This document shows, piece after piece, positions 5,657 through 22,400 of a DNA stretch of 64,000 nucleotides. Origin of the DNA: Flagellimonas sp. CMM7 (GTDB lineage: Bacteria > Bacteroidota > Bacteroidia > Flavobacteriales > Flavobacteriaceae). The DNA is taken from NCBI RefSeq assembly GCF_021390195.1, contig NZ_CP090003.1, forward strand, positions 1,352,001 to 1,416,000, in the 5' to 3' direction. The position numbers and the translations under genes were made by a program. The notes beneath the pieces were generated by a model, which was given only the letters and a program-made list of their open reading frames with translations, had not been told where the DNA came from and did no database searches. Numbering within the stretch: the stretch's first letter is position 1; the number at the start of each line of letters is the position of its first letter.

Positions 5657-6784
5657 TCATATATTTAATTGGCACCATAACAGGGGATGCTCACTAGCTG
5701 CATGTTTTTCATTATTAATGCTGCCAAAAATGTTCCACTGGGGTTGCTGTTTGTGCCACATTCCTTTTCTAATTAACCCCCAATTTTCAACAGTATTAAA
5801 GAGGCCACCTGACAACATGAGATAATCCCGTTGCTTGATGTTGACACCCATTTTGTATGCCCCTAATCTAAAATAATCGGCATCTTTCCCTCTATCCAGA
5901 TCACCCAAAAAATTGGGATGTTTAGTTATGTCCTTCAAATAGGTGTCATTGATGATTGGTGCAATTGCACTACTATAGCATGGGGCATTCAATGTGCCCA
6001 AAAAGACTGAATGAGAGGATATATCTTTTTGTCTTCCAGAAAAGCGTTTTGAAATATACTCCGATTGCATTTTTTGGCGATTACAAAAAACCTCCGAATC
6101 ATCATCGTTATTGGTAAAATGTGTGCAATGAACGTCCAGATTAAGGCCAGAACTGGTTCTGAACCTATATTCCTGTAGATCCACATCAAATAAGGGATTA
6201 TTCTTTTCATCAGAATCGTTCACATGGGTCTTTATCGACTCAAGATCAAATCCTTCTTTCGCCAATACTCCGATACCTCGACCATAGGGGTCATTGGTTC
6301 CCAAAAAAACAATTTCCTTGTAGAGAGAACCATTTTTGGGGGATAGGAAATGTCGATTGAACTCGACCAGTGAAATCCTATCCTCCACTTCCAATAGCAC
6401 AAGAATATCAGGGTCAACCTCCGCTATGACCTTGGCCTTGTTCATAATGGCCAATTCATCGATTGGCATGGAGTCAATTTTTGCCCACCCTTCCCAATCG
6501 GTCAAATGTGATGACTTTGGCATTTCCCTGTCCAAGCCTTTTCTGAGCGTTAACTGACCTATGGTATTCTTGATGGTAAAATAAGGTATTTGTTCTTCTT
6601 TATCGAACCCCAAAAAATGGGAAAGTATCCGCATCCTGTCATAATCCCTTTGGGTGCGTCCCGGCTGGATTAAAAGAGTTTCAAATTCTTCCACCCATTG
6701 GTCCTTGTTTTTAGCGTTACAACGCTCTACCAAACGAATATGACGTTGGAAGATGTTCTGTATGTTGAAGAGGGCCATTTTCAT
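5657..6784 (-). CDS. Endonuclease/exonuclease/phosphatase (EEP) fold protein
   Basis: A 375-residue protein with EEP-superfamily signatures: a metal-binding glutamate in DPDILVLLEVED, a VHCTHFTNN strand (counterpart of the NxH motif), FLGTLNAPCYSSAI (counterpart of GDFN) and a C-terminal SEHPLLW (counterpart of SDHxP, Asp replaced by Glu). The family hydrolyses phosphodiesters in nucleic acids or phosphoinositides. The GDFN-like motif reads GTLN, so catalytic competence is uncertain. Its start overlaps the small HTH gene by four bases and its stop abuts the ORF6N gene, so the three genes form one unit. Proteins of this kind are frequent in flavobacterial mobile elements and little studied. 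Confidence 0.8.
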   Translation of the reverse strand: MKMALFNIQNIFQRHIRLVERCNAKNKDQWVEEFETLLIQPGRTQRDYDRMRILSHFLGFDKEEQIPYFTIKNTIGQLTLRKGLDREMPKSSHLTDWEGWAKIDSMPIDELAIMNKAKVIAEVDPDILVLLEVEDRISLVEFNRHFLSPKNGSLYKEIVFLGTNDPYGRGIGVLAKEGFDLESIKTHVNDSDEKNNPLFDVDLQEYRFRTSSGLNLDVHCTHFTNNDDDSEVFCNRQKMQSEYISKRFSGRQKDISSHSVFLGTLNAPCYSSAIAPIINDTYLKDITKHPNFLGDLDRGKDADYFRLGAYKMGVNIKQRDYLMLSGGLFNTVENWGLIRKGMWHKQQPQWNIFGSINNEKHAASEHPLLWCQLNI

Positions 6785-7068
6785 GACTCGTCCTTAAGAA
6801 AAAAGTTCTTATTGTCCATAAGGATCTTATGGATTTCCTCTTCATCATAATAAATGATTCCTCCCAATTTGGAAAAAGGGATGGTTTCATTGATCCTAAA
6901 ATTTTGAAGGGTTCCGGGGCTTATTCCCAACTTGTTCATGACAGCATTGGACTTGATCCAACGATCCAAAGTGATACGGTCATTTTTTAATAATATTTCC
7001 TTGATTTCATCTAAGAGGGATTCTTTGAACCCTTCTAAGTCTTCCTGTGTTAAAATATTTGCTGGCAT
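6781..7068 (-). CDS. Small helix-turn-helix (excisionase-like) DNA-binding protein
   Basis: A 95-residue protein. The N-terminal half is a helical stretch (LEGFKESLLDEIKEILL). The C-terminal half is an excisionase/HTH_17-like winged helix (WIKSNAVMNKLGISPGTLQNFR, then FSKLGGIIYYDEEEIHKIL). Proteins of this family bind element DNA as recombination directionality factors or regulators. It is the first gene of the operon with the EEP and ORF6N genes and overlaps the EEP gene (ATGA). Whether it is the true excisionase of this element cannot be told, because the integrase is about 14 kb away. Confidence 0.85.
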   Translation of the reverse strand: MPANILTQEDLEGFKESLLDEIKEILLKNDRITLDRWIKSNAVMNKLGISPGTLQNFRINETIPFSKLGGIIYYDEEEIHKILMDNKNFFLKDES

Positions 7069-7251: not shown

Positions 7252-9447
7252 ATGTTTCGCACTACTTTTCCAAACTTTAGGCAATTGGACAAAATGGACT
7301 GTGGTCCAACATGTTTACAGATTATTTCCAAACATTATGGAAAGGAAGCTTCGCTTGAAGATCTTAGGAAATCCTCCTATATTGATCGGGAAGGTGTTTC
7401 CTTGGCGGGAATTAAAGAAGCGGGGGAAAGCATAGGGTTGGAAACCTTCCCTGTACTAATAACATGGGAAGATTTGCTCAAAAAAGCTCCTTTGCCATGT
7501 ATTGTACATTGGGAAGGAAACCATTTCTTCGTTGTATATCGTGTAACCACTACCAAAGTATACATTTCGGATCCAGCTAAAGGAAAATATACTTTAAGTG
7601 TGGATGAATTCAAAAAAGGGTGGCTTTCAGAGGTGAACAAGGGAGTTGCTATGCTTTTGGAACCAACGGACACCTTCCGAAAAGGTAAGTTGCAGGGTAG
7701 CGGTGACAGAAACAATCTTTTAAAAACTCTTAAGTACCTTTTCGATTACAAGAAATTGCTATGGCAATTGTCTCTAGGGTTATTATTATCATCCATCGTT
7801 CAATTGGCCTTGCCGTTCTTTACGCAAAGTATTGTAGATTATGGAATAGAGAATCAAGATATAGGATTTATACAAGTCATTCTTATTGGACAGATTTTCT
7901 TCGTGTTGTCCAAAGGTGCGGTGGAAATACTCAGGGATTGGATTCTGTTGCATATCTCTATGAGGGTCAATATCCGTATGATGAATGATTATCTTTCGAG
8001 ATTAATTCAACTTCCAATTTCCTTTTTTACTGGAAGGGGAATCGGGGATTTGGTAAGGCGGATCAATGATAATGAAAGGGTTGAAGAATTCTTCACGAAT
8101 GGTTCCCTGACATTTTTGTTCGATATTTTTAATATTATTCTTTTTGGGTTTGTACTTGCTTATTACAACTTAAACATATTTTTGGTGTTTCTCATTGGCT
8201 CTGGAGTCTATTTACTGTGGTCATTGGCATTCATGAAGAAAAAAGCCTTATTGGACACCGCCTATTTTGGAACGAGTGCAAAGAGCCAATCCAAGATTCT
8301 TCAGATAATTTACAACATTGAGGATATTAAGGTCAATGGTTCGGAAGACAGGCGTAAAAAGGAATGGTACCAGACTCAACTTGATCTTTTCAATGTTACT
8401 TCTGAAAACCTAAGAATCCATCAATTGCAAACCAACGGTGGTCAGATTATCAACGAATTAAAAAATATTGCAATTATCTTCCTTTCCGCATATGCAGTCA
8501 TCGAAGGAGTCTTTAGTCTTGGTGTTATGCTAGCCATACAATTCATAATTGGCCAGCTCAATGTTCCTTTAAGTAAGATGATTGATTTCCTATTAGATTA
8601 TCAAAAAGCTGAATTGGCCGTGAAACGTCTTTTTGAAGTATGGAAAGAGGAACCTGAGGGGCATAAATTGGATGGAGCTACCAAGGCTTTTCACCATGAC
8701 ATAACACTTAGAGATATTTCTTTTAGATATGGGCCTCCAGGAACCAAGGAAGCATTATCCAATATTTCCATGGAAATCCCTAAGGGAAAAGTCACAGCTA
8801 TAGTAGGACATAGTGGATCGGGGAAATCTACCTTGCTCAAGCTTTTGTTACAATTCTACCCTCCAACCAAAGGAAAAATTGAAGTAGGAAAAATATCATT
8901 ATCCTCAATAGCGCCCAAAGATTGGAGAGAAGTTTGCGGAGTAGTACTTCAGGAAGGGCAACTTTTTGATGATACAATAGAAAGGAACATTACTGAATCT
9001 CAATCAAAGGTACCATTGGATGTAGAACGATATGAACAAGCCATAGATTTCGCTATGTTAAAGGATTTTATAGACGATTTACCTCATAGGTCCAAAACTA
9101 AAATTGGAGAAAATGGGATAAAATTAAGTGGAGGAGAAAAACAAAGAATATTAATGGCCAGGGCCATTTATAAAGACCCAAAATATTTCCTTTTGGATGA
9201 GGCCACCAGCTCTTTAGACTCCATCAATGAAAAAGGGATTCTTAAGAATTTGGAATCCTTCTATAAAAATAGGACTGTGGTTATTGTGGCTCATAGGCTT
9301 TCAACTATTCGTAATGCAGATAATATCATTGTATTGGAAAATGGAAATGTCGTAGAACAAGGAACACATAAGAAGCTTTTGAAAAACAAAAGTACCTACT
9401 GGAGATTGGTACAGAATCAAATGGACTCTATTGAAGATGGACGATAA
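7252..9447 (+). CDS. Peptidase-containing ABC exporter (C39 peptidase, PCAT)
   Basis: A 731-residue exporter that removes a double-glycine leader and pumps the mature peptide across the inner membrane. The N-terminal C39 peptidase has Cys17 in DCGPTC, His91 in EGNHFFV and Asp107 in SDPA, a complete triad. A transmembrane domain follows, then an ATPase with Walker A GHSGSGKS near residue 520, signature LSGGEKQR near 625, Walker B FLLDEAT near 646 and an H-loop near 679. The ATG at 7252 is chosen because the C39 domain begins right after it. An in-frame TTG at 7159 would add residues with no family counterpart. It overlaps the HlyD gene. Confidence 0.95.
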   Translation: MFRTTFPNFRQLDKMDCGPTCLQIISKHYGKEASLEDLRKSSYIDREGVSLAGIKEAGESIGLETFPVLITWEDLLKKAPLPCIVHWEGNHFFVVYRVTTTKVYISDPAKGKYTLSVDEFKKGWLSEVNKGVAMLLEPTDTFRKGKLQGSGDRNNLLKTLKYLFDYKKLLWQLSLGLLLSSIVQLALPFFTQSIVDYGIENQDIGFIQVILIGQIFFVLSKGAVEILRDWILLHISMRVNIRMMNDYLSRLIQLPISFFTGRGIGDLVRRINDNERVEEFFTNGSLTFLFDIFNIILFGFVLAYYNLNIFLVFLIGSGVYLLWSLAFMKKKALLDTAYFGTSAKSQSKILQIIYNIEDIKVNGSEDRRKKEWYQTQLDLFNVTSENLRIHQLQTNGGQIINELKNIAIIFLSAYAVIEGVFSLGVMLAIQFIIGQLNVPLSKMIDFLLDYQKAELAVKRLFEVWKEEPEGHKLDGATKAFHHDITLRDISFRYGPPGTKEALSNISMEIPKGKVTAIVGHSGSGKSTLLKLLLQFYPPTKGKIEVGKISLSSIAPKDWREVCGVVLQEGQLFDDTIERNITESQSKVPLDVERYEQAIDFAMLKDFIDDLPHRSKTKIGENGIKLSGGEKQRILMARAIYKDPKYFLLDEATSSLDSINEKGILKNLESFYKNRTVVIVAHRLSTIRNADNIIVLENGNVVEQGTHKKLLKNKSTYWRLVQNQMDSIEDGR

Positions 9448-10729
9448 GGTTATTTTTTCTGAGAACTTTTTGAACCGCCCTCCTAATTGGATGATGAGGA
9501 AAGGAAACATGATTCTTTTTCTTTTTTTCACATTACTCGTTGTCTTTGCGTTCTTTTTAAAATATAATGAGGTAATCCATGCAGAGATATTGGTTACTTG
9601 TGAAAACCCTCCTGTTGCCCTCTACAGCAAAAAGGGAGGAAAGCTGGTTTATGTGAACTTTAAATCTGGTCAAGAAGTCAAGCAGGATGAGATTCTTTCG
9701 GTTGTTGAGAACCCTTCAAAATGGGAGGATGTCTTCCATCTTAAGGAGCAGTTGAACGACATAGACACCAATATGGTTCGCACATTGGACAAACTCTATC
9801 AAAAATTCCCAAGTGACTTAGAATTGGAAGTAAACATTCACATGTCTTATCAAAAATACTTAAGAGCATTTCAAAGTTATTTGCTCCACTTGAATCTAGA
9901 TCAAGAGGAACATGAGAATGAAAACTTAAGTTTGAGGATAGGAAGATTAAAGAGACAAATAAAGATAAAGCAGGTTCAGTTAAACACTTCTAGGAGAAAT
10001 TATGCACTGGCAAAACAAAGTAATGGTAGGCAGCAAGAGCTTTTAAAAAAAGGGGTGATATCTCAACAGCAACTGGATGCAAACGAACAGGAAATGTTAT
10101 CCGCACAAAATGATGTCAATAGAATCAAGGAAGAGATTGAAGCGCTGTATGTTGATACACTCAGTCTGAATGACCAAAGTCTAAAATCATTGAACAGGAA
10201 CATTGTCAATTCATCCTCTAACTTTTCAGAGCTTCAATTGGCGAAACAAGAATTAAAGGGGAAAATTGATGCATGGGAAAATAACTATGCCCTGAAAAGT
10301 CCAATTTCTGGATCAGTTACTGTTTTCGATGTTTGGAACAATCATCAGCATGTTCCTACTGGAGAGCACGTACTCACTGTAGTTCCAGACAAAAAGAACA
10401 AGCTTGTTGGCAAATGTAAAGTTCCTATTAGAAATTCTGCGAAAATCCATAAGGACCAGGAGGTTGTTATAAAACTTGACAATTATCCCTATCATGAGTG
10501 GGGCCTTATTAAAGGTAGAGTCGTGAATATATCCGAAACACCAAAAAAAGGAGATGAAGTTTATTATTCTGTTTATGTGAAGATTCCTAATTTAACTACC
10601 ACATACAATAAGGAAATCGAGTTCAAACAGGAAATGATGGGAACCGCAAAAATAGTGTTGCAAGAAACCTCATTATTGGAAAGGGTTTTCTATCAATTTA
10701 GAGGACTTTGGTCAGACATAAATTATTAA
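9437..10729 (+). CDS. HlyD-family periplasmic adaptor of the peptide exporter
   Basis: A 430-residue membrane fusion protein. It has a short cytoplasmic N-terminus, one membrane helix near residues 25-45, a biotinyl-lipoyl-like half domain (SKKGGKLVYVNFKSGQEVKQDEIL), a long coiled-coil hairpin (about 90-270), and the returning lipoyl half (SPISGSVTVF) with beta-barrel domains. It links the ABC exporter to an outer-membrane channel. No TolC-like gene lies nearby, so a chromosomal TolC is probably used. The start overlaps the exporter gene by 11 bases. A TTG two codons upstream is an alternative. Confidence 0.93.
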   Translation: MDDKVIFSENFLNRPPNWMMRKGNMILFLFFTLLVVFAFFLKYNEVIHAEILVTCENPPVALYSKKGGKLVYVNFKSGQEVKQDEILSVVENPSKWEDVFHLKEQLNDIDTNMVRTLDKLYQKFPSDLELEVNIHMSYQKYLRAFQSYLLHLNLDQEEHENENLSLRIGRLKRQIKIKQVQLNTSRRNYALAKQSNGRQQELLKKGVISQQQLDANEQEMLSAQNDVNRIKEEIEALYVDTLSLNDQSLKSLNRNIVNSSSNFSELQLAKQELKGKIDAWENNYALKSPISGSVTVFDVWNNHQHVPTGEHVLTVVPDKKNKLVGKCKVPIRNSAKIHKDQEVVIKLDNYPYHEWGLIKGRVVNISETPKKGDEVYYSVYVKIPNLTTTYNKEIEFKQEMMGTAKIVLQETSLLERVFYQFRGLWSDINY

Positions 10730-10737
10730 ACTAAAAT

Positions 10738-12417
10738 GTGAAAGAGAATATATTTTTATATCGAGTTTTGTTTTTTTTATTTCTGTTTTATACTGCAACA
10801 GCTTGTTCACAGGAATTATCCAAAGACCAAATATTTCAGCTTCCGTTTGATTCCATTATCAAATTGGAAGATGACTTGGACTATGGAAGCAATTATTCAA
10901 AGAAGGTTTTTGACACACATATATTAAAGGCAAAATATTTAAATGATACCAACCAGCTTGCCGAAGCTTATAGGAAAAGGGTCTGGGGAGAGAACTTTAA
11001 TATTGCGGTTCAGTATATAGATTCCTCAATAGCAATTTCCGAAAGAGTTAGTCAAAGTGACTTCATAACAAGAGTACGCTATACCAAAGGAGGGCTTTTG
11101 TATGAAGCAGATATTCCTGAAGAGGCCGTAAAAGAATTTGTTAAAGCCTATGAATCAGCAAAAGAAATTGAAGATTATGAGCGAATTGTTGATTGCTTTA
11201 ATGCTATTGCGGTCATCAAAGGAGAATACGGGCATCAGGAAAGGGCGATTTCATTGCTCAGACAATCAATACAATACTTAAAAAAACATCGACAAAAAAT
11301 TGAGAATTATGATTTAACCCAACTAATAACTTTGGATAATATCGCCCGGTGCTACTTACAAATCAAGCAAATTGATTCATCACGAACCTACACCAAAAAA
11401 GGGATTGATTTGTCATTAAAGATGAAAGATTTTGATACATATCAATCTTTGAGGGCCTTAAATGCTCAAATAAATTACTATGATGGAAATTATCTCAAAG
11501 CAAGGGATACTTTAATCAAGTACACCAAAGGTTCGGGAGATTTGTCCGAGGCTGATAGACTTTATTATTTAGGAATGGTTGAGGAAAAGCTGGGCAAGCA
11601 TATTAAGAAAAGAATGCATTTTAAGAGAATAGACACTCTTCTAAAGAGAAATGATTATCCTCTTATGGACAATGTCAAAGAAATATTCCAATTCCTTCTA
11701 AAAGACGCAATCTCTAAAGATGAAAAAGTTTTCGTTGAAACTTACGCGAATAGGTTAGTATACTATGATAGTATGTTGACAGAAGCGGAAAAAAATATAA
11801 GGAGTATTTTATGGACAGAGTTTGACTTACCTGAACAAGAGGAAACTAAACAAAATCTATCGAATGAAATTGACAAAAAAGAAAATACAATCAAAGTATT
11901 TTTTTTCCTTTCTACAGCATTGATTGTTTTATTTATTCTTTATTATATCAAATACAACTCAACGCAAAAGAAGCTGAAATTTGTAATGAATGAAGACATT
12001 TTGCCTGTCAAAAATAACCCTAAAAAGGAAGAGGTCATCAAAATGGATATCGACACCGATGTAGTGTTGCATACACTTGAAGCTTTAGACAAATGGGAAA
12101 AAAACCTTGGTTTTCTCAACCAGGGCTCAAATCAGAATACATTAGCAAGAGAACTAAATACTAATACAACATATTTATCTAAAATTATTAATGCTTACAA
12201 AGGGCAAAGCTTTTCCAATTATCTTAAGGACCTTCGAGTTACTTATGCGATTAATTCTCTGAAAGAAAATCCAAAAGTCATTGAAAGCCACTCCACAATA
12301 CAAATAGCTGAAATGTTCGGGTTTAACTCGTTGGATGTGTTTGCTAGGTCACTTAAAGCCAAAATTGGCCTTACACCAGCGGTTTTCATTAAGCAGATAA
12401 AAAGAAGCAATTTATAA
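10738..12417 (+). CDS. Membrane-spanning TPR / AraC-type HTH regulator
   Basis: A 559-residue one-component regulator. A signal-peptide-like N-terminus (to about residue 23) leads into a roughly 350-residue helical region with TPR-like repeats (for example LYEADIPEEAVKEFVKAYES). A single membrane helix lies near 384-404, and an AraC-type double HTH fills the last 100 residues (LARELNTNTTYLSKIIN, then IQIAEMFGFNSLDVFARSLK). The TPR part should face the periplasm and the HTH the cytoplasm. The likely start is GTG at 10738, because the overlapping ATG runs straight into TGA. It sits between the peptide exporter and the precursor peptide, so it is the obvious candidate to sense that peptide or control its expression. 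Confidence 0.9.
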   Translation: MKENIFLYRVLFFLFLFYTATACSQELSKDQIFQLPFDSIIKLEDDLDYGSNYSKKVFDTHILKAKYLNDTNQLAEAYRKRVWGENFNIAVQYIDSSIAISERVSQSDFITRVRYTKGGLLYEADIPEEAVKEFVKAYESAKEIEDYERIVDCFNAIAVIKGEYGHQERAISLLRQSIQYLKKHRQKIENYDLTQLITLDNIARCYLQIKQIDSSRTYTKKGIDLSLKMKDFDTYQSLRALNAQINYYDGNYLKARDTLIKYTKGSGDLSEADRLYYLGMVEEKLGKHIKKRMHFKRIDTLLKRNDYPLMDNVKEIFQFLLKDAISKDEKVFVETYANRLVYYDSMLTEAEKNIRSILWTEFDLPEQEETKQNLSNEIDKKENTIKVFFFLSTALIVLFILYYIKYNSTQKKLKFVMNEDILPVKNNPKKEEVIKMDIDTDVVLHTLEALDKWEKNLGFLNQGSNQNTLARELNTNTTYLSKIINAYKGQSFSNYLKDLRVTYAINSLKENPKVIESHSTIQIAEMFGFNSLDVFARSLKAKIGLTPAVFIKQIKRSNL

Positions 12418-12505
12418 AATGAGCGTTATATTTTACAAAACAAGTATAAATATTAGCTAGCTTGGGTCATCAAAATTAAAGTTTAACCATAAATTATTGA
12501 TTGAA

Positions 12506-12622
12506 ATGAAAAATGCACGAGATTTATTCAAGAAAAAAGAATTGAAGCAAATTCACAAAATTAAAGGCGGTGATGGTGGAGGAACTATCGAAAAAGGTAA
12601 AGTAAAAAAGTACAATAAGTAA
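12506..12622 (+). CDS. Double-glycine leader precursor peptide (38 aa)
   Basis: A 38-residue reading frame that standard gene calling could easily miss. The first 22 residues look like a leader for a C39 exporter: charged and helical, ending ELKQIHKIKGG. Cleavage after Gly22 would release DGGGTIEKGKVKKYNK, 16 residues, glycine-rich at the start, basic at the end and without Cys, Ser or Pro. That argues against lanthionine or disulfide chemistry. It lies 88 bases after the TPR-HTH gene and is followed by a perfect hairpin at 12642-12677. Such leaders are known for bacteriocins and pheromones. Which of these it is cannot be read from sequence. Confidence 0.8.
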   Translation: MKNARDLFKKKELKQIHKIKGGDGGGTIEKGKVKKYNK

Positions 12623-12641
12623 ATTAACTTATAGGTTTTAT

Positions 12642-12677
12642 ACTAAAAATCCCTATGTTCGGGTAGGGATTTTTAGT
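12642..12677 (+). terminator. Perfect 14-bp hairpin between peptide and peptidase genes
   Basis: ACTAAAAATCCCTA is followed after eight bases by its exact complement TAGGGATTTTTAGT. The right arm carries a T-run, as in intrinsic terminators, and the left A-run would make it work in both directions. It begins 19 bases after the peptide stop and ends on the base before the first possible start of the peptidase gene. It probably ends most peptide transcripts and lets a little read through. Confidence 0.8.
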
Positions 12678-12689
12678 ATGTCATTAAGT

Positions 12690-14840
12690 ATGAAAAGAAA
12701 AGTGTTGTTTATTGGACTTATGGTTTCTATTCTTTTTGGATGCAAACAGAATGAAACTCGATTTTTCAATTACCCCAAACTGGCAAATGAAAGGGTTGTT
12801 GAAAAACATTATGGGATTTCATATGCTAATGAATATTCTAACCTTGAAAAAAAGAATGATTCCAACATAGTTAAATGGTTCAAGGACCAAGATTTAATAG
12901 CCGAAGAGTACTTTAATAGAAACCCAAATTATAAAAAACTTTATTCCCGCTATGATTCTTTGGAAAACAAAGAAACAGACCCAGCAAGAAAAATCAAGTA
13001 CGATGAATCAGGATTAACATTTTATTTATCCAAGACTAATGAAGGAGAAATCTTGTTATTTGTAAAGAACAGAGAAGCGTCTCCCCAATTATTATATGAC
13101 CCCAAAAACTACAAAGATGGAACCTATATCATAGAATACTATAAACCATCATATGATGGAAAATATGTGGCCATCTCTATGGGGAAAGATGGAAATTTCT
13201 TTAATGAAACCATTCTCTTGGATTGTGAATCTAAAAGATTAATTGGGAAGCCAATTGTAAATACTAAACCTTTAAAAGCAGGAGGTATTGTTTGGACACC
13301 TGACAGTAAATGCATTTCATTTATCGCTTATCCTAATTATAGGAAAAACCAAAATGATCGGAATAGCTATACCGCGCTCTATTGTTTGGACAATCCTGAT
13401 AAATCTCCAAAAACCATCTTCAAAGATGGAGAAAACGGTATTGTCTTGAACCAAGAATATTATCCTGTTCCTATGTTCCGCTCAAGTGAGAGCAGCTACA
13501 TGTTCATATATACTGGCAATGCTTCAGACTTTTGGGATTGCTATTACATAACTGTCCAAGATTTTTATAACGGCAATTATAATTGGAAGAAACTATACTC
13601 TAGCGAGGATAATATATTTCATGACTGGGGTACAGAAAGGAATGGTCAGTACTTTTACAAGAGATTGAATGAGAGCAATATCGAATTATGCGTAGTGGAT
13701 TTAAATAATCCTGATTTCAAAAACCCCAAGGTATTATTTTCGGGGAAAGGAGACAGTCAGTTAAGCGGCTTTGAAGTCACTCGAAATCAAATATACTATA
13801 CAGTGACTACTAATGGAATAGAAACCTCCCTATATAAATACAAGGAGAGCTCCAAAGATGTTCTAATTAAGCTACCTATTTCAGCAGGGGAAATTACCTT
13901 TCAATATCGATCCCCTTACTCTGATGATTTATGGGTAAAAATATATGGATGGACCTCGAATCCTAAAGATTATTATTTAGACCCTAACACGGGTGAATTC
14001 AAGTTTGTTGAATTGGGAATGTGGCCCAATTATCCTGAATTTGAAAATATAATTAGTGAAGTTGTTGAAGTCGAATCCCATGATGGAACAAAGATTCCAA
14101 TGAGCATTGTCAGAAGAAAAGACCATAAAAGGGATGCTACCTCAATGGGAATTATTACTGCATATGGAGCTTATGGTATATCCGAAACACCATGGTTTCA
14201 TTCCCCAATAGCAGATTTTGTAAGCCAAGGTAATATTTATGTCTCTGCACATGTGCGGGGCGGTGGGGAAAAGGGGCCGAAATGGCATGACGGTGGTATG
14301 AAATCAACCAAAGAAAATTCATGGAAAGATTTGATTGCCTGCAGCGAATATTTAATAAAAAGTAATTATATCCACCCAAAGAGACTTGGACTCACGGTAA
14401 ATAGTGCGGGTGGCATAACAGGTGGCATGGCTGTCAATGAGCGACCTGATTTGTTTGGAGTATTCACGGGATTTGTTCCAATTTTAAATGTTATAAGAAC
14501 TGAATACCTTGATGATTTTGATGATTCTGATACCGCTTTTGAATTTGGCACTATAAAAGAAGAGAAAAGCTATAAGGATTTACTTAAAATGGATCCTGTT
14601 GTCAATCTATCCGATCAGAAAAACTACCCTAGTACATTAATGATTATTGGATTTAATGATTATTTGATTCCACCATCTGGCCCAGGGAAATATATTTCCT
14701 TATTGCAATCATTTAATCAAAATAATGATAAACCCTATTTATTGGATGTAAAATTTGACGCAGAGCATGAAATAGATTGGCTCAATGATTATGCTAGAAT
14801 GTTATTCTTTACAATGACTGAATTAAAGAACCGAAACTAG
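12690..14840 (+). CDS. Exported prolyl oligopeptidase-family (S9) lipoprotein
   Basis: About 716 residues from the ATG at 12690. An ATG four codons upstream directly touches the terminator hairpin. The N-terminus MKRKVLFIGLMVSILFGC is a lipoprotein signal. A beta-propeller region is followed by the S9 catalytic domain: nucleophile Ser in NSAGGITGG, Asp in GFNDYLIPP, His in FDAEHEIDW, plus the family block GGGEKGPKWHDGG. POP enzymes cut short peptides, usually under about 30 residues, after Pro or, in oligopeptidase B types, after basic residues. Its place beside a secreted 16-residue Lys-rich peptide suggests that peptide as substrate, for maturation or destruction. That link is inference. 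It converges on rteC with overlapping stops. Confidence 0.88.
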   Translation: MKRKVLFIGLMVSILFGCKQNETRFFNYPKLANERVVEKHYGISYANEYSNLEKKNDSNIVKWFKDQDLIAEEYFNRNPNYKKLYSRYDSLENKETDPARKIKYDESGLTFYLSKTNEGEILLFVKNREASPQLLYDPKNYKDGTYIIEYYKPSYDGKYVAISMGKDGNFFNETILLDCESKRLIGKPIVNTKPLKAGGIVWTPDSKCISFIAYPNYRKNQNDRNSYTALYCLDNPDKSPKTIFKDGENGIVLNQEYYPVPMFRSSESSYMFIYTGNASDFWDCYYITVQDFYNGNYNWKKLYSSEDNIFHDWGTERNGQYFYKRLNESNIELCVVDLNNPDFKNPKVLFSGKGDSQLSGFEVTRNQIYYTVTTNGIETSLYKYKESSKDVLIKLPISAGEITFQYRSPYSDDLWVKIYGWTSNPKDYYLDPNTGEFKFVELGMWPNYPEFENIISEVVEVESHDGTKIPMSIVRRKDHKRDATSMGIITAYGAYGISETPWFHSPIADFVSQGNIYVSAHVRGGGEKGPKWHDGGMKSTKENSWKDLIACSEYLIKSNYIHPKRLGLTVNSAGGITGGMAVNERPDLFGVFTGFVPILNVIRTEYLDDFDDSDTAFEFGTIKEEKSYKDLLKMDPVVNLSDQKNYPSTLMIIGFNDYLIPPSGPGKYISLLQSFNQNNDKPYLLDVKFDAEHEIDWLNDYARMLFFTMTELKNRN

Positions 14841-15649
14841 GCATTGCCTTGCTCCATTTTATTGTACATTATATAAGAGAGTTCATCTAGAAATTTTATT
14901 TTATCCTTCTTTCTTGAACATATTTCAATATAGGTACGATAAAAATCTCCTAAACTAAAATTGAAAATTTTTTCAAAAGCATTTGCAATTTGTTTAATAT
15001 CAGCCTTCCCATTATTTATAGCGCCAGAATGGTGTAGGGCATAAACTAATTCCGTCAATGACACCTTACTTGAGGTCCAGTGTAAGTTGCTGGTTTTATC
15101 GATTTTGCCATAACTCCTCAACCTATTTTGGAGGTATATTGACATACGTTGAAGCGCACTTATTTTGGCCAAAAGATAATCATGTGAAGTGTTAAAAATT
15201 GGGTCAAGAATATAATATGGTTTAGCAATACCGCAATAGAAATTAGAATATTTTCTAGTAAAGAATTGTTTGTCGAAATGAGTCTGCTTTAACCTAGTAT
15301 ATCTTATGAAATCCGAATGAGTTAGAAATAAATCGCTTATATCTTCGGTTTTCTTCTTGATATATTTCTTTTGCGTTTTAAGTTTATTCATAGGAAAGCT
15401 TGCTTCAAAATCTAGTACTTGTGAATAATAGATAAGATTTGTTAGCGGAGTCTGTTTAACAAACTTAAAAAAATGAATTTCATCATTTTCATTTTGGAAA
15501 CCTTGATTAGCCACTTTGGCCCTCAACCCCAGTAGATGAGTTTTACATGCAAGAATAATTTCCTTGCAAACTTCAAGGATATTGTTGTTTCGGGATTCAA
15601 TTTCCTTGATTTGACTTTCCAAGTCATTGATGTGCATTTTTCTCTCCAT
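14837..15649 (-). CDS. rteC: RteC-family regulator of the conjugative element
   Basis: A 270-residue homologue of RteC, which in CTnDOT activates excision gene expression after RteA/RteB signalling. The diagnostic C-terminal block is well kept: LHWTSSKVSLTELVYALHHS, then AINNGKADIKQIA and SLGDFYRTYIEI. The N-terminal half is more divergent and helical. No rteA or rteB-like pair is seen in the window, so the upstream signal is unknown. It is divergent from a beta-barrel gene across a region with repeated operator-like motifs. RteC supports the reading that the whole left part is one conjugative element. A second ATG four codons downstream could be the start. Confidence 0.92.
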   Translation of the reverse strand: MERKMHINDLESQIKEIESRNNNILEVCKEIILACKTHLLGLRAKVANQGFQNENDEIHFFKFVKQTPLTNLIYYSQVLDFEASFPMNKLKTQKKYIKKKTEDISDLFLTHSDFIRYTRLKQTHFDKQFFTRKYSNFYCGIAKPYYILDPIFNTSHDYLLAKISALQRMSIYLQNRLRSYGKIDKTSNLHWTSSKVSLTELVYALHHSGAINNGKADIKQIANAFEKIFNFSLGDFYRTYIEICSRKKDKIKFLDELSYIMYNKMEQGNA

Positions 15650-16009
15650 ATCCTAAATGGTTGGACATAAGAAAGCTTGATTCTCTTTGGGTATCTGAGT
15701 ATTAAGAAATAATCCCAAGTAATTTTTCAGGATTTTACTCAAATCAAATATGAGGAAAATGAAAATTAAATAAAAACTTGATTATCAGTGATTTATAAAT
15801 TACACTGATTTTCAATAGTTATTTAAGAATGTGATTTGATTCACCGTAGGCTTCAATCAGTTGTATCAAATTATACTAATGAGAGATAAAAAAATAGGCA
15901 ATTTATAAATCACAGCTTTAATTTATAAATCACATTATTATTCAATTTTTTTTTTAAATCAATCAATTGCAAATTCGCACAAAACTTACTGATCTAAACT
16001 GAAAATAAG
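15650..16009. promoter_or_regulatory. Divergent control region with three operator-like repeats
   Basis: This 360-base gene-free region separates rteC and the beta-barrel gene at 16010. AATTTATAAATCACA occurs at 15900-15914 and again at 15920-15934, a spacing of 20 bases, close to two helical turns. A near-perfect inverted copy (14 of 15 bases) lies at 15788-15802. The layout suggests binding by a dimeric regulator, with RteC or the cassette regulator as candidates. No clear Bacteroidetes -7 element was found by eye. Confidence 0.5.
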
Positions 16010-16531
16010 ATGACCTCAAAATTAAAATTATTAACCACACTCATGATTTTATTTTCCATTGCAGATACCTATTGTCAAAATTTTGAATTTGGGGTTTCTG
16101 GAGGATTATTAAATGGTTCAAGTAGGGTTATGGAAAACAATGCAAGCGCATCATACTCGGATACTGGATTCTATTTGGGGCTATATTCTAAGATTCAATT
16201 GAACAAAAAAATCATGATAATTCCAGAAATAGATTACGGAAACCTGAACGATAGTAGTTTTGGTTTTCTATCGGCAAGGGTTGGATACTATCTTAATCAC
16301 AGTTTTTATTTACAAGGAGGTGGACAAATGACCTATTTGTTTGATGTACTTAATGATGAGATATCCAAAACTGGACTGGATTTATCACTCGGTATTGGAT
16401 ATGATATAACCAATAAATTTAATATTCAGGCGAGATATGCGCTTGAATTAACCAATAGGATTAAAGAGCCAACCACAGATGTGAAAGGAAAATTTAATTG
16501 GTTACACATTGGTTTGGGCTATACCTTTTGA
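16010..16531 (+). CDS. Small outer-membrane beta-barrel protein
   Basis: A 173-residue protein with a signal peptide (to about residue 22, ...ADTYCQ) and then alternating hydrophobic and polar strands ending in Phe (LHIGLGYTF). This is the typical eight-stranded OMP_b-brl/porin-like outer-membrane barrel with a C-terminal aromatic recognition signal. It has no sequence signature of a specific transporter. It is the first gene right of the rteC intergenic region, followed by 227 bases without a gene and then two lipoproteins and a further barrel-like protein. A structural or envelope role is likely. The ligand is unknown. Confidence 0.75.
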   Translation: MTSKLKLLTTLMILFSIADTYCQNFEFGVSGGLLNGSSRVMENNASASYSDTGFYLGLYSKIQLNKKIMIIPEIDYGNLNDSSFGFLSARVGYYLNHSFYLQGGGQMTYLFDVLNDEISKTGLDLSLGIGYDITNKFNIQARYALELTNRIKEPTTDVKGKFNWLHIGLGYTF

Positions 16532-16758
16532 TTTAATCAAAGAAGAAGGAAAAGTGCCTGTAGATAAATACCGCTTTCCATAGGAATAAGGAATCTTTTA
16601 TCCATTGCAAATCACGAAAACCCGATTATCCCTGATACTCTGATGTACTGGGAAAAGGTAAATATTGTCTAATCTAAAACTAAAGTGCCCATGAAATAAA
16701 AATTGAAGACGGTGATGTTCCGCAAACTATTCCAATCATTAATAAAAAACTAAAAAGA

Positions 16759-17655
16759 ATGAATAAAATTTATTTAACAGCATTTCTATCAATTCTAACA
16801 TTCATCGGATGCAGCAAGAGTGATACGGAAACATTAGAAAAAAATCAAGACACAACTTTTAACGTTCAATTTGATTTCCAAGTTGAGGTAAAGAATGACA
16901 TGTTGTCTTTTCCAACTAGAGAAGACTATGATTTGGCGCTGGATTATTTGGGGCCAATGAATTCCCAAGAGTTTGAAGTTTGGGAAAACAAACTTGGATT
17001 TAAATCAATGAGATCGGTACTTCCTTTGGTTGAACGAGAAAGTATAGGAATATTTGATGATTTACTTGCGACTTTACTAAACAAGGAAGGGGTAATAGAA
17101 ATATCTGGCAATGTTCTAAAATTGAACTCTACCCAAGAAACAGTATCTGTAATTGATTCAAAAGAATACGATAAATCATTAGGGTTCAAAAATAAGAACT
17201 CTAAAATTTTCAGTACTGATGATAATGTTCTTGATATTTTAGAAGGCATCGAAAAACAGCCTCTTGCTTTAAAATCAAGGTATTGCCCAAAACGAAAATT
17301 ATCCTGGCACCCAAATAGTAATGTAGCCTCAAAAGTAGTATATCAAAAAGCAGGGTTTCTAAACTCACTTGTGGCATCCATACAAAATGTAAATGGAGCT
17401 TTTGAATCAGAGAAAGAAACCTTTGGTCTCTCATTGATTACAGTGGGTAATAATTTCTGGAGAAATAAGAAAAGAAATGGGACCTTCAGTAAACCCACTT
17501 CAAGTGCAACTTCTTCAAGAAAAAGTTATAGGCCATATTATTCAAGTAGGAGACTAACTAGTTATCGCTTTTCTGTTGAGTTTAAGGCACAAGAGTTTGG
17601 ACAGGGTAATCAAGGATCATTCCATAAAAGAGTAGTCACAATAGACTGTAACTAA
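16759..17655 (+). CDS. Uncharacterised lipoprotein with basic C-terminal domain
   Basis: A 298-residue lipoprotein (lipobox LTFIGC). No family is recognised. Residues 30-130 contain an acidic, helical domain with the pattern V(K/N)N-x-LxFx...LGFKSMRSVLP that recurs in the next gene. The last 130 residues are basic and rich in Ser, Arg and Tyr (SSRKSYRPYYSSRRLTSYRF). The gene is 14 bases upstream of a longer lipoprotein, so the two are probably cotranscribed. The shared N-terminal domain suggests duplication of an anchoring part joined to different C-terminal domains. Function is unknown; surface exposure is plausible but not shown. Confidence 0.7.
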   Translation: MNKIYLTAFLSILTFIGCSKSDTETLEKNQDTTFNVQFDFQVEVKNDMLSFPTREDYDLALDYLGPMNSQEFEVWENKLGFKSMRSVLPLVERESIGIFDDLLATLLNKEGVIEISGNVLKLNSTQETVSVIDSKEYDKSLGFKNKNSKIFSTDDNVLDILEGIEKQPLALKSRYCPKRKLSWHPNSNVASKVVYQKAGFLNSLVASIQNVNGAFESEKETFGLSLITVGNNFWRNKKRNGTFSKPTSSATSSRKSYRPYYSSRRLTSYRFSVEFKAQEFGQGNQGSFHKRVVTIDCN

Positions 17656-17669
17656 TAATTAAAATCAAA

Positions 17670-19295
17670 ATGAAAACAAAAATCGTATTTAAATTCCTAA
17701 TTTCCTCGTTTTTAATTGTTTCATGTTCGGAAGAACAGATTGAAAGTTTGAGTGGAGTAGAAACCGAAGTTGGTTTAGCCGAAGTTCAAATGGTCAACAA
17801 CAAATTAAAATTTGAAAATCAAGAATCGTTGACAGCTTTCATGGAACAGATGGATGAAGATCAACTAAAAAGCAAAATAGAATCATTGAGTGCTAAAGGC
17901 TTTTCTTCTCTACGACCTTTTTTTGATGAAAATGATGATTTGGCAATAGATAATTTTCTGGCCAAAAAGAAATCGAAAATCGCAAAAAAAGGATTAATGT
18001 ATAGTTTAAAAAGTGATACTGATGAGATCGACATTGACGATGAGGTCATAACCGACTCTAGATTTGCAAGCATTTTAAATGAAGACAGGGAAATATATGT
18101 TGGTGATGAATATTACATATATACAACAGGAGGGCTATATTTTTCAAAAATCGAAGATGAACAATACCTAAAGGATTATGTTGCCGAATTGGAATCCCAA
18201 GTTTCCAGTAAATCACAATTTTTGAAGGAACTTAAAATGCCTTGTTATGACCCTAATGAACACCAAAACCAAAAAGCAAGCAAATCCTCAGATGCAATTA
18301 ACATTAGCCCAGTAAAAGGACAAATTGAGCAGATTGACTCTAAAGTCAGTCGCTATAGTTCATGTGGTGGTTCTGGGGGAGGGTCTAGTGGAGGAAGTTC
18401 AGGAGGATCTTCTAGTGGAAGTTCGAGCACCAGCAATGATATTCCATTGCTAAGACCACAAAGTTTCAAAAGCTGCGTGTACTCTGAAGACAGCATTTGG
18501 CAGAAGTTATTTGGAAATCGGCTTAGATGTAATGACTACCACGATTCAACCCATAGGGTTCAAACTATTTTTTGGAATGAAAATTACAAATTATGGGCAT
18601 CTATCGGATCACGGGTAAAATATCAAAAGAAAAGATTAATTGGATGGAGTGAATCAGGTACATCAGATTTTGTCGAAATGGGTATTAATATGGTAAAATT
18701 CACATACAATCATGTAGTTCCACAACACAATCCCTTTTCCACATCACATGTAACTTTTAAATATAAGGGACTGACATATGCAATGAACACAGGTCAACCC
18801 ATTTCATATCCTGCAAATCCAAATCCTTGGCCTTTTTATAATAAAGATCAAGAGTTTTTTACATTAGATATAATTATTGATGATAATGTTGCCAATCCAC
18901 TAAAATTGAGTGTTGACACAGATTTAGGAGATCTGAATAGAGCATCCAATGATCTAATAAAAGCTGCGGCAAAGTCACTGCCAAGTGTTTTAAATCTTAA
19001 TAGGGATATGAAAGACAATAAAGTAGGGGTCAGAATAATTAAATTTAGCAACAATAAAACAGAAATGGCCGTTTCAAATAGAATATCAAGAGGAAAATCC
19101 TATACTTGGTATCGCTATGATTTAAATTTTCTTCTAAGCTTTGAGGTAGACTTAACTGATGGAAGTGTAGCTTTACAAGAATTGGCAAAACAATTCAAGG
19201 CAAAAAAATATGATGTTGGGGAAATTGATATATATGGAGCTGCTTTGAGGGGAGGAAAATGGAAAGGAAGGAGAATAATAGGAAGAACCGATTAG
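17670..19295 (+). CDS. Uncharacterised lipoprotein with Gly-Ser linker
   Basis: A 541-residue lipoprotein (lipobox LIVSC). The N-terminal 140 residues share the pattern of the preceding lipoprotein (NNKLKFENQESL...AKGFSSLRPFF). A flexible Gly-Ser tract near residues 232-252 connects it to a C-terminal domain of about 280 residues. That domain contains HDSTHRVQTIFWNE and repeated aromatic strands, probably beta-rich. A cysteine flanks the linker on each side (SSCGG and KSCVYSE). The domain plan, anchor then linker then large beta domain, fits a surface-displayed effector or binding protein. No enzyme motif is recognised. Confidence 0.7.
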   Translation: MKTKIVFKFLISSFLIVSCSEEQIESLSGVETEVGLAEVQMVNNKLKFENQESLTAFMEQMDEDQLKSKIESLSAKGFSSLRPFFDENDDLAIDNFLAKKKSKIAKKGLMYSLKSDTDEIDIDDEVITDSRFASILNEDREIYVGDEYYIYTTGGLYFSKIEDEQYLKDYVAELESQVSSKSQFLKELKMPCYDPNEHQNQKASKSSDAINISPVKGQIEQIDSKVSRYSSCGGSGGGSSGGSSGGSSSGSSSTSNDIPLLRPQSFKSCVYSEDSIWQKLFGNRLRCNDYHDSTHRVQTIFWNENYKLWASIGSRVKYQKKRLIGWSESGTSDFVEMGINMVKFTYNHVVPQHNPFSTSHVTFKYKGLTYAMNTGQPISYPANPNPWPFYNKDQEFFTLDIIIDDNVANPLKLSVDTDLGDLNRASNDLIKAAAKSLPSVLNLNRDMKDNKVGVRIIKFSNNKTEMAVSNRISRGKSYTWYRYDLNFLLSFEVDLTDGSVALQELAKQFKAKKYDVGEIDIYGAALRGGKWKGRRIIGRTD

Positions 19296-19320
19296 ACCAT
19301 AACAATATAATTTGAAAGAT

Positions 19321-19866
19321 ATGAGGAAAATAGTTGTTGTAATTGTTGCTTGTTTGTTTTTTGTTACAATTAAGGCCCAGAGCGTTGATTTAAAAAACAA
19401 CGTTGTTTTGAACGTCATAAACCCAGGAATAAGTCTTGAGTGGGTCATTAGTAAAAAGGGGTTGATTTCAACAGATGCCGGTATCGGTTATTCAGGAGCT
19501 TTTGATGAGATAACGATTATCGAAAATAATGGCTTCAATTACGTGATAGCACCTTTCTTAGGGGTTCAGTATAAGTTGATATACAACAGAGAAAATCGTA
19601 AAAACAAAGGAAAGTCAATAAATTTTAACTCAGGCGACTTCATATCTTTTAGGGTTAGGGGAAGAGGACCTTCGATAGCTGAAAACTTAACAAGAACGGA
19701 TAACATAGATTTTGTCATCGGCCCGACCTGGGGTTTTCAGCATTCCAACAAAAAAATACGGTTACAGCTGGATTTTGGACCTCAGTACTATTTTGACACC
19801 CTAGGTAACGCTGGATTTTTCCCACTGGGAATACATTTTAACCTTGGATTTAATTTATCAAAATAA
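19321..19866 (+). CDS. Secreted beta-barrel-like protein
   Basis: About 181 residues from the ATG at 19321; a TTG three codons upstream is possible. A signal peptide (VVVIVACLFFVTIKAQ) is followed by amphipathic strands and a C-terminus of the outer-membrane barrel type (LGIHFNLGFNLSK). It is 25 bases downstream of the Gly-Ser lipoprotein and precedes a strong terminator, so it ends that operon. It may be a membrane partner for the two lipoproteins. No specific family is identified. Confidence 0.65.
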   Translation: MRKIVVVIVACLFFVTIKAQSVDLKNNVVLNVINPGISLEWVISKKGLISTDAGIGYSGAFDEITIIENNGFNYVIAPFLGVQYKLIYNRENRKNKGKSINFNSGDFISFRVRGRGPSIAENLTRTDNIDFVIGPTWGFQHSNKKIRLQLDFGPQYYFDTLGNAGFFPLGIHFNLGFNLSK

Positions 19867-19886
19867 TTGTAGGAAATAATTTATAT

Positions 19887-19921
19887 AACAGGGGAGTTGA
19901 AAAAAAATCAACTCCCCTGTT
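19887..19921 (+). terminator. Strong intrinsic terminator after the lipoprotein operon
   Basis: AACAGGGGAGTTGA and its exact complement TCAACTCCCCTGTT flank a seven-A loop, giving a perfect 14-bp stem. It lies between the plus-strand operon ending at 19866 and the converging lipoprotein gene ending at 19935, so it can serve both. Confidence 0.85.
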
Positions 19922-19934
19922 TATTATAGACTGT

Positions 19935-20534
19935 TCATTTCACTTTATTTTTATCATAGGCATTTATCAATTTGCTTAGACCAACGCGTGTAATTGTCTC
20001 AACCGATTTTGCTTGGCCCCAGTTGTGATCTTCATCAATTAGGCGGTTATCAACACCTATGACCACGGAGTTAGAGATTAATTCACGCTTATTTAAGTCA
20101 TAGATTCGTATTTCTATGGTGGCTTCGTTGGTTTTAGTTGCGGAGCCTATGTTGGTAGAGCCAACGAAACCGGTCATTTCATTCTTGGAGTTCTTTTCAT
20201 TGATGCTTATTAAGTAATCACATTTTGTCGCGATTTGGGCATTTTTCAAATCTGAGTTCGACATTTCGAAAGGGAATTGAACCGGTACGATTCTGACATT
20301 TCGAAGTTCATCTAACCGGATAAGAGAATCACCAAGGATTTCTTTAAAATAGATTGTGGAATAGTCATAGATGTCAGGAGGGTTATTTGAGCCATGAGGT
20401 TTGTTCATAACCCATTTCCCCTGGTTAAAATCCAAGGTTTTTCCTTTTTCAAATGAATATGAGTACTTTGGGGCATTGCATGAAAATAGAAAGAGTAAAA
20501 GAAAGAGAGAGAGAGAGATTAAAACTTGTTTCAT
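19935..20534 (-). CDS. Uncharacterised lipoprotein
   Basis: A 199-residue lipoprotein (SLFLLLFLFSC). The mature part has alternating strands and helices, with KCDYLISINE near the middle and EATIEIRIYDLNKRELI further on. This layout resembles lipoproteins of the DUF4136 or CsgG-like alpha/beta type, in which a residue near YLI begins a core strand. The resemblance is weak and no family is claimed. It is a single gene between converging terminator sequence and the integrase gene, so it is part of element A cargo. Confidence 0.65.
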   Translation of the reverse strand: MKQVLISLSLFLLLFLFSCNAPKYSYSFEKGKTLDFNQGKWVMNKPHGSNNPPDIYDYSTIYFKEILGDSLIRLDELRNVRIVPVQFPFEMSNSDLKNAQIATKCDYLISINEKNSKNEMTGFVGSTNIGSATKTNEATIEIRIYDLNKRELISNSVVIGVDNRLIDEDHNWGQAKSVETITRVGLSKLINAYDKNKVK

Positions 20535-20702: not shown

Positions 20703-21956
20703 TTATGAAACAATCATTTCATTAGCTTCATCCAAAATACGATCATCAAAATCTTTTAGGTATATTTCAGTGGTCCTGATGGAGGAATGTCCAAGTCCTT
20801 CGCTAATAATCTCAGTGGATATTCCCATATACTTTGCTATTGTTGCCCATGAATGGCGTATATAATAAGTAGTAAAACTTCCCTCAATACCAGCATCCTT
20901 TGCAATAATCTTAAGACGCTCGTTCATCCTTCTTCTCTGCGACTTATACTTTTGGTAATGTTTGGAGCTTCCATCATAGTTGGTCGGCAATAAGTACTCG
21001 GAAGGTTTTTTACCATTGATGTAATGATTCAATATGTTCTGTAACCCTTCTGTAATCTTTACAGAAAAGGGATTGCCCGTCTTACTTCTACCGTAATATA
21101 AGCGTCCGTTGGAAATATCCTTTACCTTGGTCTTGACCAAATCAATAAAGTTCATGCCCCTACAATAAAACATGATGAGAGTATAATTCTTTGTATGCCA
21201 GAGCGGTGAACCAAACTCATAGCGCAGTTCTTTAATGTTAATGATCTTCTCCTTGCCCACTACCCTTTTTTTGGTTCTTGTGCTTGAAGGAATCCTATAT
21301 TGCTCAAAAGCGTTTTTGACAGGTATGAACTTATCTTCTTGAATTGCATTATTATAAATGGATCTTATGGCCCTTAGATATATACTGATGGTATTTTTGC
21401 TATTGCCCCTTCCTAAATGGTAGGCTTCAAAATCCTTTAAAAAAGAAACCGTGATATCATAGAGCATTATATCTTTACCCTTATTAAACTTTACCAACGC
21501 ATCTATCCCGTCCTGGTACCACTTCGCAGTTGCAGGGCTGTTTGCACTCTTCTTTCTATCGGTAACCACTTTGCCCCATACTGAAATTGAAACTTGATTA
21601 TCTATCTTATGTCTGATTTCTGAGGTTGGATTATAGTCCCATTTTTCTTTAATGTGATCTATAAACCCTTGAAAGTCCAGTTTATCAATACTGCTCCCAA
21701 GCTCCCTTGCCAACTCTTTGGCAGCATATAATTTCCCGTCCAATTCTCGGTTGATCTCATCGCAATCAAGATTTCTGTTCATAGCGGCTGATTTTTTCAA
21801 TCGCGAATTTCTATCGTCCCAGCCATTTATTGAAGTATAATGACCTAGCCTTATCAAACTCTGTTTTTTATGAAAAACACGCAAAACAATCGGAAAAAGA
21901 CCATGCCTGTTCCTAGCATTTTTCCGTGTGTCCAAGGCCAATCTGATAAGTGCCAT
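20703..21956 (-). CDS. Tyrosine recombinase, integrase of element A
   Basis: A 417-residue integrase. The N-terminal arm-binding domain (LIRLALDTRKNARNRHGLFP) and SAM-like core-binding domain (about 110-210) precede the catalytic domain. Arg is present in FYCRGMNF, RHSWAT supplies the second Arg block, and LGHSSIRTTEIYL carries the His and the nucleophile Tyr. It is the only integrase on the left side and lies 160 bases from the tRNA-Asp fragment at 22118-22160, so it most probably drives integration and excision of element A at tRNA-Asp. The family assignment is firm. Site specificity is inferred from adjacency. Confidence 0.95.
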   Translation of the reverse strand: MALIRLALDTRKNARNRHGLFPIVLRVFHKKQSLIRLGHYTSINGWDDRNSRLKKSAAMNRNLDCDEINRELDGKLYAAKELARELGSSIDKLDFQGFIDHIKEKWDYNPTSEIRHKIDNQVSISVWGKVVTDRKKSANSPATAKWYQDGIDALVKFNKGKDIMLYDITVSFLKDFEAYHLGRGNSKNTISIYLRAIRSIYNNAIQEDKFIPVKNAFEQYRIPSSTRTKKRVVGKEKIINIKELRYEFGSPLWHTKNYTLIMFYCRGMNFIDLVKTKVKDISNGRLYYGRSKTGNPFSVKITEGLQNILNHYINGKKPSEYLLPTNYDGSSKHYQKYKSQRRRMNERLKIIAKDAGIEGSFTTYYIRHSWATIAKYMGISTEIISEGLGHSSIRTTEIYLKDFDDRILDEANEMIVS

Positions 21957-22217: not shown

Positions 22218-22400
22218 CATTTTATTTGACTCCAAAAAATATCATCTAAAACTATATAAAAAGTGCGGAATTCGGTGCGTATTTTTCCCTTCAAAAAACC
22301 CGCTCCAAAATCGATGTAATCAACTGTTAAAGAAATCCTTACAACTAAATTTTAACATTTGTTTTTGCTACTTTAAGTGAGGATTTTAAACCCCGCACCT

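Follow-up and report, generated by a model that had tools for sequence, protein, structure and literature searches.

A candidate autoinducing peptide circuit beside rteC in a conjugative element of Flavobacteriaceae

Introduction

Control of conjugation by peptides has been well documented in Gram-positive bacteria. In RapI-PhrI of ICEBs1 and Rap-Phr of pLS20, an element-encoded peptide and a tetratricopeptide repeat (TPR) receptor take part in conjugation control, and in the PrgX/cCF10/iCF10/PrgY system of pCF10 peptide sensing likewise controls conjugation, while the element's membrane protein PrgY lowers pheromone activity; a C-terminal TPR is the defining feature of the RRNPP family (PMC6540685, excerpts). 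Here we describe a stretch of 64,000 nucleotides of Flagellimonas sp. CMM7 (contig NZ_CP090003.1), hereafter the window, in which, on a mobile element found in marine flavobacteria, a five-gene peptide cassette lies on one strand (7252-14840) beside rteC and conjugation genes. Among the open-access literature matches listed, we found no description of peptide-controlled conjugation in Bacteroidota, nor of this peptide family or circuit (subscription papers and preprints lie outside that scope), and the operator that we report at the peptide gene, some exporters and rteC is newly described here.

The Rap-Phr and PrgX/PrgY systems are the closest parallels by analogy, alike in working and unlike in RRNPP architecture. 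The window TPR domain is predicted to be exported and is joined through a transmembrane (TM) helix to a C-terminal AraC-type helix-turn-helix (HTH), whereas the RRNPP layout is cytoplasmic, with a C-terminal TPR and any HTH at the N-terminus. In contrast to Rap-Phr, the window system has a double-glycine (GG) leader with a C39 exporter, would not need re-import, and belongs to a Gram-negative host; PhrI inhibits RapI, whereas the window circuit probably works by activation. PrgX represses from within the cytoplasm, has its DNA-binding domain at the N-terminus and relies on peptide import by PrgZ and permeases, and it is PrgY that the S9 peptidase of the cassette might resemble in function.

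Three systems of Bacteroidota are also comparable. In CTnDOT, the rteC step activates the excision operon (PMC10865816, excerpts), and rteC may be a step toward excision here as well; there, tetracycline-induced rteA and rteB drive RteC, whereas in the window the TPR-HTH regulator and the peptide seem to be their substitutes. Bacteroidetocins are also GG-leader peptides encoded in mobile elements of the phylum (Bacteroides integrative and conjugative elements), but they are toxins of 35-50 residues with at least two Cys (PMC6671954, excerpts), whereas the predicted window peptide has 16 residues, no Cys and a conserved polar core and thus falls outside this class IIa-like type. Two Bacteroidales clusters for ribosomally synthesized and post-translationally modified peptides combine TPR genes, GG-type precursors and exporters, and the paper cites pheromone binding by TPR domains elsewhere; these clusters contain modifying enzymes, and the excerpts of that paper mention no TPR-AraC fusion, operator, S9 or rteC link (PMC10352776).

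Compared at the level of sequence, the loci share a conserved gene set, a conserved peptide core, an operator common to the peptide gene and rteC, and a fixed promoter geometry, and we lean towards reading them as an autoinducing peptide circuit that gates a conjugative element of Flavobacteriaceae. In such a circuit, the C39-ABC/HlyD pair would cleave the precursor after GG and export the peptide, as expected from its family; the periplasmic TPR domain would bind the released peptide via its core, of the IDRDK type or, in the window clade, IEKGK; the AraC-type HTH would activate promoters carrying ATTTATAAAT, namely those of the peptide gene, of the exporter operon in several loci and of rteC, as sequence comparison suggests; RteC would induce excision and transfer, by analogy with CTnDOT; and the exported S9 enzyme would trim or destroy the peptide.

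Results

The cassette and its conservation

All five genes that the initial annotation had claimed are present in the claimed order and strand. The C39 peptidase-ABC exporter (7252-9444, forward strand), expected to carry out leader cleavage and export, matches PF03412 (1.4e-33), PF00664 (ABC_membrane) and PF00005 (ABC_tran); its C39 domain, with Cys, His and Asp, is fused to the ABC membrane and ATPase domains, as in PCAT proteins. It is 81, 81, 42 and 47% identical to the exporters of L032, L033, L048 and L046, and Q11, C17, H91 and D107, which we take to be the catalytic residues, are invariant in the alignment of the window and these four relatives. The HlyD-type periplasmic adaptor follows (9431-10726, forward; PF13437, with a TIGR01843 match below cut-off), and then the regulator (10738-12414, forward; PF13424 (TPR_12) and PF12833 (HTH_18)), the 38-residue GG precursor (12506-12619, forward), composed of MKNARDLFKKKELKQIHKIKGG and the predicted mature 16-mer DGGGTIEKGKVKKYNK, and the exported S9 oligopeptidase, a putative lipoprotein (12678-14837, forward, start perhaps at 12690; PF00326 and PF02897, with an LFGC lipobox by eye). 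The gap between peptide and S9 genes holds a terminator-like hairpin (AAAAATCCCTA-TGTTCGGG-TAGGGATTTTT, 12645-12674, forward strand), and a hairpin was seen there, also by eye, in 12 of the 19 loci described below. Convergent with the cassette lies the gene of the transfer/excision regulator RteC (14840-15649, reverse strand), with a PF09357 match (1.9e-61) of 208 bits against a cut-off of 25.3. Since TraG is encoded inside the window and TraM and DUF4138 genes lie directly to its left, the conjugative element of the initial annotation is well supported.

Relatives were collected by a regulator search (59 genomes, the window's own included), an exporter search of GTDB contigs (best 80 of 497 relatives) and a peptide search of 397 Flavobacteriaceae genomes, with loci annotated by tblastn. 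Regulator, GG peptide and S9 occur together in 19 distinct loci (the window, L048, L049, L050 (= L033), L055, L059, L060, L066, L078, L083, L085, L090, L098 (= L158), L157, L159, L160, L161 (= L128), L162 and L046), whose named hosts include Allomuricauda, Gillisia, Christiangramia, Gramella, Arenibacter, Salegentibacter and Yeosuana; L032, with exporter, adaptor and regulator up to the contig end, was left out. The gene set is thus conserved, as anticipated when its co-occurrence was proposed as a check. The peptide core is common to 18 of the 19 loci and rteC is adjacent in 17, and no recognised gene comes between regulator and peptide in any locus but L049 and L050, which have gained cargo at that point. 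Two loci, L160 and L161, show an altered order (rteC divergent from the regulator, exporter after S9), and the peptide still lies between regulator and S9. Regulator and S9 are present in 12 of the best 80 loci from the exporter search, all 12 with a family peptide between them.

The peptide family

The 38-residue open reading frame has no Pfam or NCBIfam match. A hidden Markov model of its relatives matched 7 of the 397 Flavobacteriaceae genomes at E<=0.0016 (21 further genomes at E 0.002-0.1 were treated as noise), and because in all seven, the window and six other stretches, the peptide is placed between the TPR-HTH and S9 genes, this short frame is more than a chance occurrence. When 5.8 billion proteins were searched with a profile, 115 clusters matched at E<=10 (112 of them at E<=0.01); they are about 40 residues long, lack Pfam domains and, where named, are mostly called 'hypothetical protein'. 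The peptide family is unnamed.

These clusters and four more peptides from the loci make 119 unique sequences, of which 114 contain a core that is typically IDRDK (I 95%, D 90%, R 82%, D 93%, K 98%, then I or V) and nearly invariant across genera. The core stands 2-11 residues after the GG and is followed by a tail of 4-26 residues. GG with I two residues ahead is found in 107 of 113 sequences, and family resemblance suggests that the precursor is cleaved after GG. The core reads IEKGK in the window clade, and in L162 R replaces D. Judged by eye, the mature peptide looks short and highly polar; Cys occurs in 4 of the 114 core-bearing peptides, and Pro at core position -1 in 62 and at +8 in 91, whereas the window 16-mer has neither Cys nor Pro. 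Even where the leader is unlike the rest, as in L160 and L161, the core is retained, and because of this conservation across the family the outcome named at the outset as refuting, a mature part that varies at random while the regulator stays conserved, was not seen. Pairwise codon counts were too few to use.

A phylum-wide peptide search of 395 genomes gave nine at E<=0.01, with a strong match only in the window's own genome (4.6e-13; the next, 1.6e-4). In the other eight, seven best matches run no further than model position 23-27, short of the core, and that of G702 reaches 36; none of the three loci read (L166, L169 and L171) has the core. Other TPR-AraC genes adjoin different GG peptides in L071, L074, L079, L095 and L102, Cys-containing in the Kordia loci, which suggests that this regulator type is paired with GG peptides more broadly.

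An operator common to the peptide gene and rteC

On reading the intergenic DNA, we saw that the stop codon of the regulator lies at a palindrome, CGTCATTTATAAATGACG. In scans with a matrix trained on 17 of the sites, with only five shuffles per locus, it lies at that stop codon, upstream of the peptide gene, in 13 loci and is weak in L048, while the window, L049 and L050 carry the variant AATTTATAAAATG; in the window, the clade's variant ATTTATAAAA (12410-12419) overlaps the stop codon and lies some 90 bp ahead of the ATG of the peptide gene. In L049 and L050, cargo separates regulator and peptide by ~3.3 kb, and an operator copy is retained upstream of the peptide. Upstream of rteC the operators are often tandem, 20-21 bp apart. 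The window has a promoter-proximal ATTTATAAAT at 15791-15800, followed by CATATTTG with T at +47/+48 (by eye), and a tandem of ATTTATAAAT at 15901 and 15921 with 20-bp spacing (15901-15930).

Because the motif was picked after looking, controls matter. In the 64-kb window ATTTATAAAT occurs three times, always upstream of rteC, against 0.54 expected, and none of 100 shuffles reaches three. Operators number 31 against 4.0 expected in the 12 loci with regulator and S9, 8 against 2.8 in 11 regulator-only loci, and 5 against 11.0 in 57 loci without the regulator. All 17 cassettes with rteC have the operator centre, TTTATAAA, within 500 bp upstream of that gene, which adds operator evidence to a tie with rteC that had earlier been no more than a suggestion. 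Upstream of 30 rteC genes outside cassettes, which are best-scoring Pfam matches and no random draw, it is at chance level (3 against 3.2 expected), and the full ATTTATAAAT is absent from their loci (0 against 1.79 expected). A search of the 397 genomes for the exact 20-bp tandem matched 11, with three sites in the window's genome (G000) and one in the cassette genome G430; sites were inspected in these two genomes. The backward control gave 8 matches in 7 genomes, and the exact tandem was not found in the cassette genomes G283, G314, G168, G379 and G202.

Homologues of the regulator point to the binder. Four of their loci without rteC (L034, L036, L038 and L193) have 20-bp tandems upstream of secreted-protein or GG-peptide/exporter genes, which indicates the TPR-HTH regulators as operator binders; the three sites of G000 lie at rteC, in L192, and in L193 ~5.5 kb from two chromosomal regulator genes. 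The geometry of the promoters suggests activation. Measured from the operator centre, T occupies +47 in 22 and +48 in 23 of 24 chosen promoters, and A occupies +44 in 18; this set omits near-copies (L055, L078, L083, L090), the window clade and the rteC sites of L059, L098, L160 and L161, and it counts the rteC row of L048, which has no true proximal palindrome. The pattern resembles the -7 element consensus of Bacteroidota, and an activator would be expected to have such a fixed phase. In the window, a candidate -7 element of the peptide gene, TAGCTTGG (12458-12465, forward strand), starts at +43, and the rteC promoter fits the spacing from 15791, not from 15901, both by eye. From this comparative evidence, the regulator very probably is both the binder of the operator and an activator.

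Two further observations concern these sites. In L192, tandem operators (9840-9869) lie upstream of a gene for a 529-residue lipoprotein-like protein, with no TPR regulator matched across the 20-kb stretch, and that gene is possibly a remote target. The loci L193, L034, L036 and L038 represent one chromosomal spot, with a TPR-AraC regulator, variable secreted or GG-peptide cargo and 20-bp tandem operators, flanked by what are presumably alanine-dehydrogenase-like and dehydroquinate-synthase-like genes.

The regulator and the S9 peptidase

The regulator has an N-terminal TPR region after a signal peptide (by eye), a long TM-containing helix and a C-terminal HTH of the AraC/XylS type (PF12833 3e-11, PF00165 2.5e-6). 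An AlphaFold2 model, built from an alignment of the window with 59 of 90 proteins, has a mean predicted local distance difference test score of 91.9, with helices at 37-326, a long helix at 330-418 and the HTH region at 440-558. The model suggests a TPR superhelix, perhaps of the peptide-binding type, followed by a long helix and the HTH, and its fold matches include RapI and RapLS20, the top ones being eukaryotic (APPBP2, LGN). That the TPR domain would read the signal, as originally put forward, is in keeping with such a superhelix; that this particular peptide is its ligand we consider fairly probable. A comparison of TPR and HTH conservation was dropped as a test of peptide binding for being uninformative. 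In a regulator tree of 31 rows, the window clade joins chromosomal homologues (100/100), apart from the IDRDK-type cassettes, which need two changes on the tree, with L162, L046, L058 and L106 on long branches. This would fit regulator and peptide having changed together in the window clade. The sibling elements L039 (7941-8966) and L040 (9214-10269), which have the same backbone, carry beside rteC a TM-HTH regulator without TPR, as if it had been shortened and its sensing part lost; neither has an exporter or S9 match, and TTTATAAA pairs are still found upstream of rteC.

The window S9 protein has the catalytic domain and N-terminal propeller of the S9A type, and all 19 S9 proteins keep Ser-Asp-His. 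Prolyl oligopeptidase (POP) has the proline-stacking Trp595 and Asn555. When aligned to the 2bkl segment, all 19 have T, S or N in place of Trp595 and A in place of Asn555, and those of the window, L049 and L050 have Leu at POP Arg643. Given this replacement and a window clade devoid of Pro, we rejected proline-specific cleavage that would free the core in the window, and the view of this enzyme as a proline-specific peptidase is weakened. It may trim or destroy the peptide, with an effect of either sign.

Discussion

Several results weigh against an autoinducing circuit. The cassette counts are not independent, several loci being near-copies (L059/L083, L055/L060, L085/L090, L049/L050). L162 and L046 lack rteC in their stretches despite having regulator, peptide and S9, and at neither peptide gene was an operator recognised; L046 comes from a different family within the order, and the mature part of its GG peptide differs and lacks the core. 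Of the 17 cassettes with rteC, only 9 have all ten bases of ATTTATAAAT upstream of that gene. An exporter operator ~100 bp upstream exceeds the shuffle maximum only in L059, L083, L060 (whose site belonged to the training set) and L066; that of L098 scores below it, and none was recognised upstream of the window exporter. The cassette showed no gene for an outer-membrane partner. Many proteins can be aligned with TPR superhelices, eukaryotic ones best, TPR conservation is no higher in cassettes than among homologues, and homologous regulators adjoin secreted or bacteriocin-like cargo, with no GG peptide found near those of L034 and L193.

The last of these points would also fit a different role for the peptide, namely that the regulator drives peptide, exporter and rteC while its TPR senses another cue (envelope stress, a host factor or exporter load), and the peptide, under the same regulation, is an output directed at neighbour or recipient cells. 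We regard this as rather unlikely: same-operator homologues do adjoin such cargo with no IDRDK-type peptide seen there, and the TPR region shows no special conservation in cassettes, but the peptide directly follows the regulator in all 19 loci except the two with inserted cargo, a nearly invariant core is unusual for an arms-race effector, and the window clade departs in both regulator lineage and core. C39-ABC/HlyD exporters often serve bacteriocins and one homologue is named 'Bacteriocin-like' (P0194), which would make the peptide a bacteriocin or microcin, S9 its immunity or detoxifying protein, and the adjacency of rteC a matter of mobile-element cargo. On a Riemerella element that likewise has RteC, a C39 exporter was annotated as bacteriocin cargo (PMC6491836, excerpts). 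The short, very polar mature part with its rare Cys, the operator common to cassette and rteC, and the lack of any recognised modification or immunity gene among the cassette genes make this reading improbable. More improbable still is that RteC itself binds the palindrome, autoregulates and drives the cassette too: this would explain the operator centre upstream of rteC in every one of the 17 cassettes, but the operator is enriched in regulator-only loci, tandems occur in regulator loci without rteC, and other rteC genes, in the best-scoring sample described above, are at chance level; we therefore disfavour RteC as the binder.

The surroundings of the cassette have features of their own. Two tyrosine integrases (20703-21956 and 22377-23657; PF13102/PF00589) are encoded on opposite strands of the window, and the cargo at 16010-20534 comprises an outer-membrane barrel, two lipoprotein-like proteins (298 and 541 residues) and proteins of 184 and 199 residues; in L050, a homologue of the 541-residue protein and a 184-residue protein are inserted between regulator and peptide. 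A 375-residue protein (5660-6784, no Pfam match) and a 95-residue HTH_17-like protein (6784-7068, below cut-off) are found near the cassette in most relatives. The window's genome has four RteC matches and so probably holds several such elements.

That RteC triggers excision in the window element is expected by analogy with CTnDOT. RteC-type genes are present in 132 of the 397 Flavobacteriaceae genomes, so the switch of such elements matters, and the autoinducing circuit is open to direct testing through its conserved peptide, defined operator and named output gene. The operator also suggests a broader group of TPR-AraC regulators over secreted and bacteriocin-like cargo. Tentatively, since we hold this broader interpretation to be somewhat doubtful, the cassette may represent a new class of Gram-negative pheromone system, in which a periplasmic one-component TPR-TM-AraC receptor, with no re-import, directly activates rteC, and elements count cells or fellow carriers before transfer. 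If this is true, the IDRDK-type core would be a language common to genera, and the IEKGK of the window clade one of its dialects.

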